The position numbers and the translations under genes are program-made. The notes below the pieces were generated by a model, which searched no databases, had not been told where the DNA came from, and saw nothing but the letters and a program-made list of their open reading frames with translations. A DNA stretch of 64,000 nt from Gongronella butleri (Eukaryota; Mucoromycota; Mucoromycetes; Mucorales; Cunninghamellaceae), in contig JAIWZP010000048.1 of NCBI GenBank assembly GCA_025201375.1, positions 156,252-220,251 of the forward strand, given 5' to 3'. Numbering within the stretch: the stretch's first letter is position 1; each line of letters opens with the position of its first letter. Of the stretch, positions 26,305 to 32,511 are shown in pieces.

Positions 26305-28130
26305 AACTAGTCTTTTTTTCACTCCAAAACGCGCAATGTCTTTGGTCTTGCCCAGGATGCTGGGATTTGCATGAGCCTGTACGACTCTGAGTTGGGCGCG
26401 CACACGGGGGGTTCCATTTTTGATCAAGGTTGAATAAAAAAACGTCCATTTTTGGCGAAATTAAGCTGTCTCTGTGTCACGTTGAGCGGCCTATGATGTT
26501 GCTCTTCTTGGTCAGTTCAAAGGTGAGGCCGATGAAAGAGCTTGATTTGGCCACCGGTGTTCTCAATGGCACCTCTATTGGCCGCAATCGCCTCCTTGAG
26601 GGTCAATGGACGAACGGCAGACGCGCCATCCTTGCAACGTGCTCGAGTGGCTTTGTAAACGCGTCATTTTGGTCCTTGACCCCCCTCCCCTTTTTTTCGC
26701 CACCCTGCACGCCCTGGCACCAACGACCCAGCAACCCAGTGCCAAGAAAATTTCTGTAGCAACAAAAATAACAAGATTTTGATTTGCCCATCTCACGACC
26801 ACTATATTTTCCACCCCCATCCGATGAATTTTAAAAAAAAAGACGACAAAAAGCATGTTCCACTTCCTTTCAGGGCTGTCTCGCCTTGCCCTGCAAACCG
26901 CAGCCAAGTCTAGACTCATTGTCTTTTCCCTGTGCATGTACCCCACGCCTGCTCTGTATAAGCAATGGCTGGAAAATGACGTGTCCATTGGGCCAGGCCA
27001 CATTGTCGCCATAAACGGCCGCAAAAAAAAAAAAAAAAAAAACAAAAAGCCTCGCGATGCACGACAAATAGCCGCCGTGCACGGCTGGCCCTCTTCTCCC
27101 TTCCAATGTTCCAGTTTTGAAATATTAAAAGCCTAATCTTTATTTTTAGATGCATGTGGGCGTGCTCGGCTCCTCCGGGGACACCATTACGTCAGTTGTC
27201 AAAACAAAAGCACTCCCTCACGCGACCCGTCTCACCCACCGTCCTCATTGGCTTTGTACTCCCCCTCTTTTTTTTTTGCCCCCTCCCCCCTCGTGCTGAT
27301 TCTGAAGGACTAAGCTCGGCTATTCCTTGTGTGGAGCCCCCAAATGCAGAAATATTCGACACGCATGGCTTATGATGTACTTTTATGTGCGAAGGCGCTC
27401 AGTGCTTGGCAGTTCAAGAAAATAAAATGGGGACACGCGCACTGTGCATTATTGCAATATCATTCTCCTGCAAATTAATACGCAAAATGGCTTATTGCTC
27501 GTCAACTGACAGATGGGCTGTTATCATTTTCGGTTTTTTTTTTTTTTTTTTTGTGGTTTCTTCATGCCTATTACTTGCAGATGAGCTTGGCGTCATCCTG
27601 GAGCCCTATTTTTTTCGATTTTGGTTTGGAAGCTGGGTTATAGCTGATTTTGGATCGGCTATGATAGTGGCGCCCATTTTGCCTGCTTCAAGCCAGCAAA
27701 TTTGACGCCCTCACTGGGGTTATCAGCTCATTAGGACGCCCTGGACGCGTTTCAGACCATGTGCAGCGTGCCTGTTTGCTGAAATCATTACGAGTTGCGC
27801 GATTTTGCAAAATGCATGACATTAAATCCCTTTTTATAGGACAATACCCGTGAAATTTTTTTCTTCATCGTCTGCATCTTTCATCGAGCTAGTGCACCCT
27901 GGCATTGCAAGGTCCAATGCCAACAGTTTTGTCTTTTTGCTGGCAAGTTCTCGCAAGTTTGCAAAAAAAAAAAAAGATAAATCACCATGAAGCGTCTCCA
28001 ATTTAAAGTGATAGCGGACAGGTTCATGCCATATTGCTGTGATTTGAAGCCATTAGAGCCTCCACGAACAGGCAAAACTTTGATTTTGGTAGCAAGTGAC
28101 CGTTGGCGCTCAAACGCGTCCGAGTTGCGG
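26305..28130. other. Intergenic region, nothing supportable
   Basis: Short frames on both strands have no recognisable motifs and are broken by A and T runs (for example near 27023-27042 and 27533-27552). The right end carries the promoter of the six-HTH gene. Confidence 0.5.
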
Positions 28131-28140: not shown

Positions 28141-28204
28141 GTGAATGTCGCAGTCCGACCACGTTCGTTTCTCTCCCTTTCCGTTTCAAACTATCTTTTG
28201 CGAG

Positions 28205-29335
28205 ATGCATCCCCTCACACAAGCGAAACGAGACGAAATCAAAGTTTGTCTACTGAATGGCAAGTCAAACCTGCAAACGGCGCACGACTGTGGCGTCAGT
28301 CAATCTTCGGTGTCAAGAGAGCGAATCAGGAACGGTCTTTGCAGGCCGCCCCGCGACGCGTCGACTACAAAAAAAATCAAGCAGCTTCTTCTCGACGGCA
28401 TATCTATGAATAAGATTGCTCGAGAGTGCAGCGTGCCGTGGGACAAAGTGCGAAGGATACAATTTTTGAACGACATCCCGGCGAATAACCGCAGAACATA
28501 TGACGAAAGCACGCTTGAAGAGATCAAAAGGCAACTCATAAACGGCACGCCAGTGACTACGGTTGCAAAGGATTTCCATGTCGGATTTCAATTTGTGAGG
28601 ACGATAAAAAAAAAAGCCAGTATCGGCCTAGGCAGCTCAAGTATGAGGCTCAGTGCGAATAAAATCGAGGAGATCAAGAAACGCCTCCACGACGGCCAAT
28701 CTGCAATGGCCACAGCGAAATTTTGCGGTGTGAGCTGCACGACAGTTACGAAAATTAGAAATCGCTACAAGATCCCAATTACGTGGATGACCAGGTCAAA
28801 GCTCAGTGCAACAAAAATCGAAGAGATCAAGAAGCACCTCTGCGATGGCCAATCTGCTAGTGCCACGGCGAAATTCTGTGGTGTTAGCCGCGACACGATT
28901 CGCAAAATTACAAAATACTACAAGATCCCATTTGCTCGGAGGCGCTTTTCACCCAGTACGACAAAAGTCAACGAGATCAAGAAACAACACCTTTGCGGCG
29001 GACGATCTGGCAATTTTACAGCGAAATTTTGTGGAATGTGCTGCGCAACAGTTTGCAAATTCCCCAAGCATCACGGGATCTTGCGGCTGCTCAAACAGCT
29101 AAACCAAAACGACATAGATCCTTGCTGGACCGTAGAAAAGTGCAAAAACAGCAAAGTCACTGCGAGGCATGTGGAAATGTCGCGTGAAACCGAAGGCTTG
29201 CAGGTCATCAAGGAAGAATCGATTGAATTGCCATCGTTGACAACCAGTGGCATGTCCTTCAACATCACCACTGTTGATGTACCATTGGCGAGCATCGAGT
29301 TTCTGGACGCGATCCCTTTTTGCATCTTGATTTGA
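28205..29335 (+). CDS. Protein of six tandem helix-turn-helix units
   Basis: A single-exon frame of 376 residues from ATG 28205 (an in-frame ATG at 28145 would add 20 residues). Residues 4-292 consist of six repeats of 46-51 residues. Each has a first helix ending in a conserved Gly (positions 19, 65, 114, 164, 215 and 265/266) and a second part of the form A-x2-[CF]-x-V with a recognition-like helix. Units 4-6 are closest to each other (IEEIKK, DGQSA, TAKFCGVS). The pattern resembles the HTH of resolvases and Tc1/mariner transposases, which normally occurs once or twice next to a catalytic domain. None is present: the tail (293-376) is acidic and hydrophobic without recognisable motifs. Unit 6 has extra Cys and a weaker second helix. 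It is probably a DNA-binding protein, perhaps derived from a transposase; function unknown. Confidence 0.7.
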   Translation: MHPLTQAKRDEIKVCLLNGKSNLQTAHDCGVSQSSVSRERIRNGLCRPPRDASTTKKIKQLLLDGISMNKIARECSVPWDKVRRIQFLNDIPANNRRTYDESTLEEIKRQLINGTPVTTVAKDFHVGFQFVRTIKKKASIGLGSSSMRLSANKIEEIKKRLHDGQSAMATAKFCGVSCTTVTKIRNRYKIPITWMTRSKLSATKIEEIKKHLCDGQSASATAKFCGVSRDTIRKITKYYKIPFARRRFSPSTTKVNEIKKQHLCGGRSGNFTAKFCGMCCATVCKFPKHHGILRLLKQLNQNDIDPCWTVEKCKNSKVTARHVEMSRETEGLQVIKEESIELPSLTTSGMSFNITTVDVPLASIEFLDAIPFCILI

Positions 29336-30964
29336 TGCCTCCCGTTGCCTCCTATATTTTTTTTTGCCTCAATTACTGTAACAAGAGCTGCCTATAAAAG
29401 TACAAAGAGCACAATAGAAGCGTGTAAAAATATTTCAAAAGGAGTAATTGAAGTTTTACATTTTTGATTCGATTTTGATTTGCGTAAATATTCGCCCATC
29501 TGGACATCCATGTGGGGACCGAAGTGTGCCCGAGCGCGTCGCCATTTAACGGTGCAAGATTCATCTCGATCGACCAGATATTTTGCGAGTTTTGATACGA
29601 TTGTGCTGAATTTGTAAAAATGTCGCGCCTTTCTCGACAATGAGCTAATGAACCTCCGATTTTTACTTGTTTTCTGTGAAGAGAAGATAGATACCGTTGT
29701 GCATCCAGTCTGGGAGTGCTGCGGCCACGGGATGGTTTACAATGATGATTTTCAAAAACGACGCACTTTCCAAGGGTAACGCCGAGGGGTTGAAAATGAC
29801 GAGATATAGGTCTTTCAATCACAAGGTAGAGCGCGCTTTGTTTGCCAATAAAAATGAAGTAAAAATCGCAAATCGATTAACTGGTTCTGGCGTGAAACGT
29901 GATGGACACGGTCGTTTTCGACCCAAGGCCAAGTTGACAAAATCGGAAACAGAGCCGTGAAGCATGGACCATCAGAAAGAGCACGGTCTGCTGCATACGT
30001 AAAACGATTCCCAAGCAGAATTAAAGTGAGAAACTCGATTGCGGGTCAACTTGGGCGCGTGATAAACCGCGTCAAACATTGTGTTGCACGCGTATGTACC
30101 TAATCAAGTCCATGGACTTGGTGCCTCTCGTGATAGCGGACGCGTCGGCGGCGATATAGGAGCGCGTTTTCCCCGTGCAATTCACGCTTGAGGTTAAATT
30201 TAAAATCACAAATTGCTCGTCAACGAGTACGTTGATCCCCTTCTGTTTTGGCCGTTTCGGTGAGGTCTCCATGCAGTAAACCATGTGTGCAAGTTTAATG
30301 CAATTACGGCGGCCTGATTTATCAATTTTCAATTTTTTTTCTCTTTTCCAGCAGCCATTCACATCTAATTTTTGATTCGCATGCGATGCTTCTCCAACTA
30401 ATTTGCGACAGATGCAGCCTGATTGAGGAAGACGCCAGTGCATAAAGATCGGGGGTTGACAGAAAGGGTGGCGAAGAACGGCGAAACGTCAACTTTTACA
30501 GTATAAAACGCTGATTTCTCCACCAATTTACGTTGCATAGTGGTAAAACCACATTCATTTGGAAGCGAGATTCGAATCCTAGCTCTTGCCAGAAAGCTAC
30601 ATATTGTGTTGGCTGAGTCTCGAATTTCAGGCGCGAAACATATAAAAAACATTTTAATGCATTGCTTACGCCTACAAAATCCAACGTCAGTACCATTACC
30701 TGGTAAGTAGATATACAGCGTAAAGGCACAGCTTTCCAATGATCTAAATGGCACCGCCGAGGTCTATGTGTTTGTAAAATTGTGAAGAAAATAAGCGAAA
30801 AGCGCATAAAAAGTGCCAATTCACCGCAGTCGAGCGCCCGCCGGGCGAGCGGAGTTGTGCCCCACACCTTGGGGGGGAACATTGAGCCAGAATTTTAGCG
30901 CGGCGTTGTTCCGCTGTGCCCTATTTCTTCTCTTTCTTTCCTTATTCCCTTTTCTTGGGCTGCT
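29336..30964. other. Intergenic region with possible tRNA-derived remnant
   Basis: No clear gene. A stretch near 30533-30585 resembles pol III A and B boxes (see findings). Minus-strand frames between 30072 and 30882 lack motifs and introns that would make them genes. The last 100 bp are the CT-rich leader of the cyclophilin gene. Confidence 0.45.
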
Positions 30965-32511
30965 ATGATCAATCCAAGAGTCTTTTTCGACATTGACATT
31001 GATGGTCAAAGGAGTAAGCTTACCGAAGCGATCTGCGCAGGATGCTTTGCTGTGAAATCATACTCATGGTGGTTTTTGCTTTTTTTTCTTAGTTGGGCGC
31101 GTGATCTTTGAGCTTTTTGCCGATGAGGTGCCCAAGACGGCCGAGAACTTTCGATCGTTGTGCACTGGTAAGGGCGGACGGATCCGAGCGACATTGAGAG
31201 GGGGGAGGGGGGTTGCTTATTAAATTTTTTATTTTTATTTTTATTTTTTAGGCGAGCGCGGTATTGGCAAAGTGAGCAACACGCTTTTGCACTACCGCGG
31301 GTCGATTTTCCACCGGATCATCAAAGGCTTTATGTGCCAGGGCGGCGACTTTACAAAGCGCAATGGCTCTGGCGGCGAGAGCATATATGGCGCGACGTTT
31401 GCAGACGAATCGTTTACGCGCAAGCACACGTCCGAGGGCCTTCTTAGCATGGCAAACCGCGGACCCGGCACCAATGGGTCGCAATTCTTCATCACGACGC
31501 GCCCAACACCGCATCTCGATGGAAAACACGTCGTTTTCGGCCACGTCGTCCATGGATTCGACGTTGTGCAAAAAATGGAGGCCGAGGCTGTTGATGAGCG
31601 CGATAGGCCTCTGCACACCGTGATGATTGCCAATTGCGGCGAGCTCGAGCTGCGCCTGCCTGCCCAGCAACAAGGTAGCCTAGAATTGACGGCCATTGGG
31701 AGTACAGATGGAGTGGAAGGGGGTCAAAAACTGAAATTCTCATTTCCTTTTTTTTTGCAGCTGCGGGTGCGGCTGTCTCTGGGTCGGAAGGCGAGTCGGA
31801 CGAGGAGAGTGCGAGCGACGACGAAGAACGACGACGTTCGCGCAAGCGGAAACACAAAAAGGGGTCGAAAAAGGATCGCAAGAAGAAGAAGCGATCAAAG
31901 AAGCGGCGCCGCAGCTCGAGCGTGGATTCTGACGACGACAATGACGACAATGAGTCGTCGCGCCGCCATCGCCGCCGCCGTCACCACCGTCACCGACGAC
32001 ACGACCGCTCGCGTTCGCGTTCGCGTTCGCGTTCGCGTTCGCCTTCTCGCTCGCAATCCGCGTCGCCTGCGGTGCATGACGATGATCGCGCACCAGCGAG
32101 CCCCAAACGACGCGACAAGGACGACAAGGACGCGTCGCGTTCAATTTCGCGTTCACGTTCGCGTTCGCGCTCACGCTCGCCGACGCGCAGCCGATCGCGG
32201 TCGGCGCGTCGATCTTTGTCGCGCTCTCGATCACGCTCTCGCTCCCGCTCGCGATCGCCCGGTCGCTACCAGAGGCGCCATGACGATTACCAGGCACCTG
32301 CATGGGAGCGCGAGCGCCGCTTTGCCGGCGACCCCGAGGTGCAATTCAAGGGTCGCGGTAGAAAGGTAAAAAAAAAAAAAAAAAAAAAAAAAAAGTCAAG
32401 CAAAAATCAAAAAAGAACAATTATCCCAATGCTCTTTTTTTTTTGTTTCCCCAGAAATTCTACCCGTCCGCAGGATCGCGCACGAGCCTTGCTCGATTGT
32501 TTGAGCGATAG
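30965..32511 (+). CDS. SR-rich nuclear cyclophilin (PPIG-like peptidyl-prolyl isomerase)
   Basis: Exons 30965-31013, 31093-31167, 31252-31674, 31761-32365 and 32455-32511 encode 402 residues. Residues 1-180 are a cyclophilin domain that isomerises X-Pro bonds: [24 protein letters not shown] (catalytic Arg, Phe, Met, Gln), NGSQFFITT and [12 protein letters not shown]. The position that is Trp in cyclophilin A is His here, as in SR-cyclophilins. Residues 185-375 are Lys/Arg-rich with acidic patches, then long RS dipeptide runs (SRSRSRSRS) like splicing SR proteins, which suggests nuclear speckles and a role with the spliceosome or RNA polymerase II. The final small exon is Ser/Arg-rich. It converges with the next gene, only 51 bp between stop codons. 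Confidence 0.92.

Follow-up and report, generated by a model that had tools for sequence, protein, structure and literature searches.

Tandem helix-turn-helix arrays with diversifying recognition helices and a near-fixed C-terminal tail in Gongronella butleri: a candidate repressor family

What is the function of a protein that carries six DNA-binding units in a row and no recognisable catalytic domain? The question is raised by a gene in a 64,000-nucleotide stretch of the Gongronella butleri genome, which was analysed as a whole and is referred to here as the window. The gene is a single-frame coding sequence on the forward strand (28205..29335, 376 amino acids, ATG at 28205, stop codon at 29333-29335). 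A second in-frame ATG lies upstream at 28145; since most paralogues, as judged by eye, have a methionine a few residues ahead of the first KRDEI-like helix, the start at 28205 is supported. A preliminary description had read the product as a stepwise expanded DNA-reading array of six tandem helix-turn-helix (HTH) units, possibly a domesticated transposase DNA-binding domain or a novel regulator of repeats. Its observation was right; its interpretation is partly supported and too small. It contained no mention of three things reported below: existing paralogues, a tail at the C-terminus and a pattern of selection.

A unit profile and an AlphaFold2 model agree on six tandem HTH units, and the glycines listed in the preliminary description (positions 19, 65, 114, 164, 215 and 265) are all present. 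The three Pfam profiles that it had proposed for a search all match the window protein (HTH_7, 8.6e-16; HTH_38, 1.3e-15; HTH_23, 9.7e-15). No catalytic domain is found among the 19 Pfam families matching with E ≤ 1, which comprise only HTH-type and weak other models. Structure prediction, likewise proposed there, was run with AlphaFold2 on the window protein together with 24 family sequences and yielded three helices in each of the six units, with block-mean pLDDT values of 88-96 for units 1-5 and 74-82 for unit 6. Residues 333-369 and 374-376 fall below a pLDDT of 50. With a pTM of 0.42, the relative placing of the units is not fixed by the model. Coordinates of all features are compiled in Table 1. 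Downstream of the HTH-array gene, a cyclophilin-type peptidyl-prolyl isomerase frame (PF00160, 6.2e-39) is located at 31272-32369 (+) of the window.

Table 1 Positions of features in the window and in the encoded HTH-array protein.
Feature	Position in window	Strand	Residues and remarks
HTH unit 1	28223..28336	+	7-44 (unit profile); AlphaFold2 helices 6-17, 22-29, 33-42
HTH unit 2	28361..28477	+	53-91 (unit profile); AlphaFold2 helices 52-63, 68-74, 79-88
HTH unit 3	28508..28624	+	102-140 (unit profile); AlphaFold2 helices 101-112, 117-123, 128-137
HTH unit 4	28661..28774	+	153-190 (unit profile); AlphaFold2 helices 151-162, 167-174, 178-187
HTH unit 5	28814..28927	+	204-241 (unit profile); AlphaFold2 helices 202-213, 218-225, 229-238
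HTH unit 6	28964..29080	+	254-292 (unit profile); AlphaFold2 helices 252-264, 269-276, 280-289; lowest AlphaFold2 confidence
I-K-E-E, sumoylation-consensus-like motif	29207..29218	+	335-338
Family C-terminal tail IEFLDAIPFCILI	29294..29332	+	364-376, directly ahead of the stop
~670 bp repeat	29915-30329 and 27547-27655	-	reference L010:6061-6860

The window gene is one member of a paralogue family. Searching the G. butleri assembly (33.0 Mb, 110 contigs) with the window protein gave 55 matching places, among which 25 long frames of 277-612 amino acids were collected, each a single open frame. They hold 5-11 HTH units, a few of them partial, and 169-170 units in total by the unit profile; the paralogues with differing repeat number that the preliminary description had suggested looking for thus exist. 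The set includes C45c, which is without the C-terminal tail and was excluded from alignment A1, and C78, which is stopped ahead of it. Broken or partial copies left out of it were L010 5115-5528, L011 8938-9900 with L012, L015 8145-8892, L020, L024, L026 5782-6099, L029, two L030 fragments, L044 and L045. Family genes occur singly and in clusters: five consecutive genes lie at about 93-100 kb of contig C67, and clusters mixed with broken copies are found on C52, C44 and C34. Broken or partial copies are present on C93, C100, C44, C46, C34 and elsewhere. In the tree, the window gene groups with an 11-unit gene on C1. Next to this pair is a group of 12 genes (support 96), and nine of the 12 make up clade I (support 100); the genes of the C67 cluster form a clade of their own (support 100).

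Two further members, L022 and L045, were scanned with Pfam for catalytic domains and gave HTH-type matches only. Both are distant members. L045 (C17) combines HTH matches with a long low-complexity stretch; L022 (C45c) has five units and a proline-rich stretch and is without the tail. The two may represent an ancestral form of the family. The named G. butleri relatives in the database are all annotated as 'hypothetical protein'. Among the precomputed Pfam accessions of the eight G. butleri proteins P0003-P0010, those that we recognised are HTH-type, and P0006 additionally carries PF15978, a TnsD-like family.

Outside G. butleri, a protein search based on shared 5-residue words, which also missed known members, returned no relatives. 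Protein queries returned 3, 3 and 7 proteins, all from G. butleri or the window's own, and the search was incomplete in that P0003 was recovered by some family queries and missed by another. Viral contigs yielded 31 tail-like pattern matches and prokaryotic contigs 79, with no relatives among them. On the evidence of the protein search, the one type of search that covered other fungi, the family appears to be lineage-specific. No published description of the family was found in the literature covered, from which subscription journals are largely absent.

A match to a known multi-HTH family with a defined role would, by the preliminary description, have counted against its reading; no such family reached its cut-off. 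The best NCBIfam match of the window protein is Cbp1 (NF040595, 3.6e-24) with 85.2 bits against a cut-off of 140, and none of the 34 matches to this model in the genome exceeds the cut-off. Among natural solved structures, 2lvs, a Cbp1 relative, is the one that the family profile matches best (1.7e-6). Cbp1 is not known to have a fast-evolving paralogue family or a shared C-terminal tail. Cbp1 and the window protein are alike in having tandem HTH domains that arose by duplication. However, Cbp1 has three units and the family described here 5-11, and the archaeal CRISPR context is absent here. Cbp1 of Sulfolobales is described as laying its three duplicated HTH domains in order along the CRISPR repeat, with the third recruiting a chromatin protein, Cren7 (PMC10883916). 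The HTHs of Tc1/mariner transposases, of Hin/Sin recombinases and of IS21 share the fold of the single unit. In these proteins, a catalytic domain is accompanied by one or two HTHs, whereas no such domain was found in the three family frames scanned. A domesticated transposase DNA-binding domain could be the origin of the array, the HTH likeness being one to a broad fold. Pipsqueak-type proteins are eukaryotic regulators that likewise contain a number of HTH motifs in tandem; the Psq family is absent from the 19 Pfam families matching the window protein with E ≤ 1.

Comparison of the units points to growth of the array from within. Units 4 and 5 of the window gene have 74% of their residues in common, unit 6 shares 50% with unit 4 and 53% with unit 5, and all other pairs lie at 26-43%. 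Units 1-3 pair one to one with those of the C1 gene, the nearest paralogue (50, 72 and 53% identity). Units 5 to 10 of C1 are 66-100% identical among themselves, with no difference between two of them over the profile, while units 4 and 5 of the window gene resemble each other more than any C1 unit (at most 61%). Unit number must therefore have changed after the two genes separated, and by these identities the later units expanded separately in each. This supports the earlier suggestion that units 4-6 are the newest. Between adjacent later units of C1, 12 nonsynonymous differences fall on 56 contact sites and 40.5 on 488 sites elsewhere. With paralogues of 5-11 units, separate expansion of the later units and diversification of the recognition helix, which fits DNA reading, the stepwise expanded DNA-reading array of the preliminary description is well supported by sequence comparison.

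The strongest result concerns the recognition helix. Over the 39 positions of the unit profile, entropy is highest at position 27 (4.06 bits), followed by 16, 28, 17 and 31; conserved positions are G13, L10, A20 and V30. Positions 27-36 correspond to the third helix in the AlphaFold2 model (unit 4). The third helix of an HTH meets the major groove with its first residues and with those one turn further along; by alignment to LacI and Hin, we take positions 27, 28 and 32 to be base-contacting. The contact set 27/28/31/32 was picked after the entropy table had been seen, guided by these presumed contacts. The site models (M1a versus M2a, in a program written for this analysis, with naive empirical Bayes posteriors) choose no positions beforehand and use this set in the mask test only.

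In a set of 14 paralogues to which the window gene and C1 belong (248 HTH codons, 45 columns with poor register agreement removed), M2a was favoured with 2ΔlnL of 88.1 and ω of 3.89 for 10.5% of codons. Eighteen sites had P > 0.9: six at position 28, five at 27, three each at 31 and 17, and one at 16. Fourteen of these 18 lie at 27, 28 or 31, and the 27/28/31/32 mask ranks first of 39 register shifts. Window-protein residues among these sites include Q33, S34, W79, D80, Q129, T179, R229, R233, C280, A281 and C284. Clade I (nine genes, 300 HTH codons) gave a similar picture, with 2ΔlnL of 75.8 and ω of 4.76 for 8.3% of codons; of its 15 sites with P > 0.9, positions 27 and 28 hold four each, 31 holds three, 17 two, and 16 and 21 one each, so that 11 of 15 lie at 27, 28 or 31, and the mask again ranks first of 39. 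When all columns of clade I were used, 2ΔlnL was 119.5 and 26 sites had P > 0.9, of which 11 are in linkers. The signal in the second clade, C67, is weak: 2ΔlnL was 8.75 (p 0.013) for HTH codons only, where position 28 came out on top and the mask ranked third among the 39 register shifts, and 5.84 (p 0.054) for all codons.

Class-wise codon models gave ω values for clade I of 1.75 at contact, 0.94 at other surface, 0.48 at frame and 1.22 at linker positions. For C67 they were 0.91, 0.49, 0.29 and 0.75, respectively, and 0.18 for the tail. In partition models, contact ω of clade I was compared with 1 (2ΔlnL about 6.0) and with the linker value, from which it did not differ significantly (2ΔlnL about 2.4); contact ω of C67 was no different from 1. 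Forty pairs (30 non-C67 and 10 C67) passed the thresholds for pair counting, which were 200 residues aligned, an identity of 40% and a dS of less than 1. All 40 show more change at 27/28/31/32 than at the remaining HTH positions; an excess over neutrality at p < 0.05 is seen in 11 of 30 non-C67 and 0 of 10 C67 pairs, the pairs not being independent. The window gene and C1 differ by 34.5 nonsynonymous changes at these positions where 21.6 are expected under neutrality (p 8e-4), in an alignment that places window units 4-6 against C1 units that are not strictly orthologous. In a pool of six chosen pairs, the share of differing residues is 99/150 at contact positions, 130/304 at other surface positions, 317/665 in linkers and 267/916 in the frame. 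The excess of contact over linker has a p of 3e-5 in the pool and reaches p < 0.05 in only two of the six pairs taken singly; in the pair C44c/C78, contact is lower than linker. The HTH framework and the tail are under purifying selection, the absence of which the preliminary description had counted against its reading. Taken as codon-level evidence, the data indicate positive selection concentrated at the recognition-helix positions expected to face DNA.

The opposite behaviour is seen at the C-terminus. A shared end peptide, typically I-x-F-L-D-E/A-I-P-F-C/V-I/V-L-I, abuts the stop codon in 23 of the 25 frames; the exceptions are C45c and C78, and C34b retains only the last eight residues. 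In alignment A1, the columns of I364, I370, P371 and F372 are near-invariant. The window gene ends in IEFLDAIPFCILI, most of clade I in IEFLDEIPFCILI, and genes on C67 and C34 in PFVVLI forms. The same ending occurs in five more fragments or broken copies. All 14 places found with a tail query of the genome are family copies, and as the query missed the PFVVLI forms, their number is at least 14. Among the 23 non-C67 pairs with a comparable tail, 19 show zero nonsynonymous tail changes at dS of 0.34-0.97; the remaining four show one (window/C1) or four (pairs with C44a). Of the seven non-C67 pairs without a comparable tail, three show 1-3 differences over the part compared. The C67 tail is more variable, with 0-3.5 nonsynonymous differences per pair and a pooled ω of 0.25.

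Ahead of the tail, a sumoylation-like motif is present in 10 of 25 frames, compared to a mean of 2.5 and a maximum of 9 in 1000 shuffles; in eight frames other than the window gene it lies 41-45 residues from the end. As the paralogues are related, this evidence is weak. An HP1-type chromoshadow domain is a candidate partner of the tail, since the P-F-V-V-L core of seven tails (C67a, c, d, e, f, C34a and C34b) fits a PxVxL-type reading. In C45d the core reads P-M-V-V-L, and ten genes, the window gene among them, have P-F-C-I-L. In fission yeast, Chp2 is described as accepting a degenerate xx[IV]x[IV] motif, and Swi6 as doing so more weakly (PMC6499331). A profile search of the genome with PF01393 (Chromo_shadow) gave no match, with the positive control also silent. 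There were 49 chromodomain matches, and none of the seven places read by eye is HP1-like: four resemble retrotransposon ends, one a CHD-type remodeller and one an EF3-type ATPase, and one is ambiguous. On contig C53, at about 82025-83386, Pre-SET and chromodomain matches lie ~1 kb apart on the same strand, which suggests a Clr4/Suv39-type H3K9 methyltransferase. The exact C-terminal placement of the tail would suit equally a pocket that reads the free carboxylate.

We propose, with a probability of about one half, that these genes form a lineage-specific 'polydactyl HTH' repressor family that tracks fast-changing DNA, probably transposons, and acts via one shared effector. The proposal rests on sequence: tandem units, internal duplication, clusters, broken copies, selection at the recognition helix and a near-fixed tail. 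Each protein would lay its 5-11 HTH units along DNA and read a long composite site. The free tail would dock the same partner throughout the family, most probably a repressor or a component of heterochromatin, and the bound DNA would be silenced. A changing reader combined with a constant tail implies an unchanged output on changing targets, as would be expected where a host and its transposons or other selfish DNA are engaged in an arms race. The 'novel regulator of repeats' of the preliminary description comes near to this explanation.

By analogy, such a family would work like the KRAB and FiNZ zinc-finger proteins without being one of them. These are described as lineage-specific tandem readers with clusters, changing unit number and dead copies, and with positive selection on DNA-contacting residues next to a constant effector part (PMC5363842; PMC10547256). 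In zebrafish, M2a is reported as favoured in four of seven clades, with enrichment at base-contacting positions in two (PMC10547256). The likeness covers tandem-unit families, clusters, change in unit number, dead copies, selection on residues that by homology would contact DNA, and a constant effector part. However, KRAB/FiNZ proteins belong to animals and combine C2H2 zinc fingers with a KRAB or FiNZ domain, whereas the fungal family has HTH units and a C-terminal peptide; no C2H2 zinc finger, KRAB or FiNZ model is among the Pfam matches of the window protein with E ≤ 1. The resemblance would be convergent at most. The role of KRAB/FiNZ proteins against transposable elements rests on experiment, while that of the present family is putative. 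That a fungus independently evolved the KRAB-zinc-finger strategy from another fold, with 5-11-unit HTH arrays following transposons and one tail leading to one silencing machine, is a tentative idea that we hold to be somewhat less probable than not. If true, the rapidly diversifying reader strategy would prove to be a general one that depends neither on zinc fingers nor on a KRAB-like domain. Sequence-directed silencing by proteins of this diversifying, tandem kind is known chiefly from animal zinc-finger families. In this fungal group, RNA interference is usually given the main defence role, and the family offers a direct test of arms races there. It also provides a natural set of long HTH arrays, from whose many recognition helices an HTH reading code might be learned, and, with the tail, a defined peptide for effector pull-down.

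Several other explanations account for part of these observations. The proteins might be ordinary lineage-specific transcription factors that read host promoters and underwent duplication and subfunctionalisation without any conflict with selfish DNA. A fixed tail would be in keeping with an ordinary co-regulator, and homeodomain-like families are described as belonging to the three that account for most of the growth of transcription-factor repertoires in fungi (PMC5415576). Nonetheless, a class ω of 3.9-4.8 concentrated at DNA-facing positions, several broken copies and changes in unit number after duplication are more typical of conflict, and we regard this explanation as unlikely. Readers of centromeres, satellites or recombination sites, in the manner of CENP-B or PRDM9, or parts of a drive system, would track fast-evolving satellites or hotspots and should show the same selection pattern at DNA-facing residues. 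The window protein has a weak Pfam match to CENP-B_N (2.4e-5, 24.3 bits), and HTH arrays suit repeated DNA, as described for Cbp1 (PMC10883916). Such readers would, however, be expected as one or two members and not as ~25 divergent ones, and the three Pfam-scanned family frames contain no methyltransferase or toxin domain; we consider this reading distinctly improbable.

The HTH fold, which is that of resolvases and Tc1/mariner transposases, the dispersed and partly broken copies and the transposon-like repeats nearby would also be explained if a mobile element had spread the arrays as its own genes or relics, the tail belonging to the assembly of the element. Against this stand the lack of a catalytic domain in the three scanned frames and the broad flank homology between some pairs of copies, e.g., 3,347 bp at 75% between L011 and L019, of which 1,796 bases are outside the gene, as from segmental duplication. 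Positive selection on contact residues would be unexpected in a transposase whose binding is restricted to the ends of its own element, and we judge a transposon-borne origin to be very unlikely. Finally, the recognition-helix signal could have a source other than adaptation, namely gene conversion, misalignment or a loss of function. Linkers are fast as well, the C67 test is weak, the site-model program is our own, window units 4-6 lack strict orthologues, and gene conversion can inflate selection tests of this kind. Yet the pooled contact differences exceed those of the linkers, class ω stays well over 1 with HTH codons only and the 45 poor-register columns dropped, the remaining HTH positions and the tail are constrained in the same genes, and pairwise unit alignments show only 0-5 register mismatches. 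We judge relaxed constraint or artefact to be the least probable of the explanations considered, and the repressor family remains the preferred one.

Several repeats occur around the family genes. A non-coding interspersed repeat of ~670 bp, whose copies share about 65-76% identity, lies near many of them. Matches of at least 200 bp number 19 in 217,923 bases of family loci, one in the 64,000-base window and one in 31,845 bases of other loci. At least 40 copies were found from 1277 first-look candidates, which makes it a common genome repeat. It was considered and rejected as a target or partner gene, being common and without a long frame in the three copies translated. A second repeat of ~600 bp with near 80% identity occurs at L009:6302-6930 and in L013, L014, L017, L022, L023 and L029. 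A recent element is present at L017:5160-6177 and L029:6125-7144, with 425-bp inverted ends that are 99% identical and copies that are 97.6% identical. A segmental duplication (L018:5300-8370 and L029:295-3483, 76-84% identity) adjoins two family genes.
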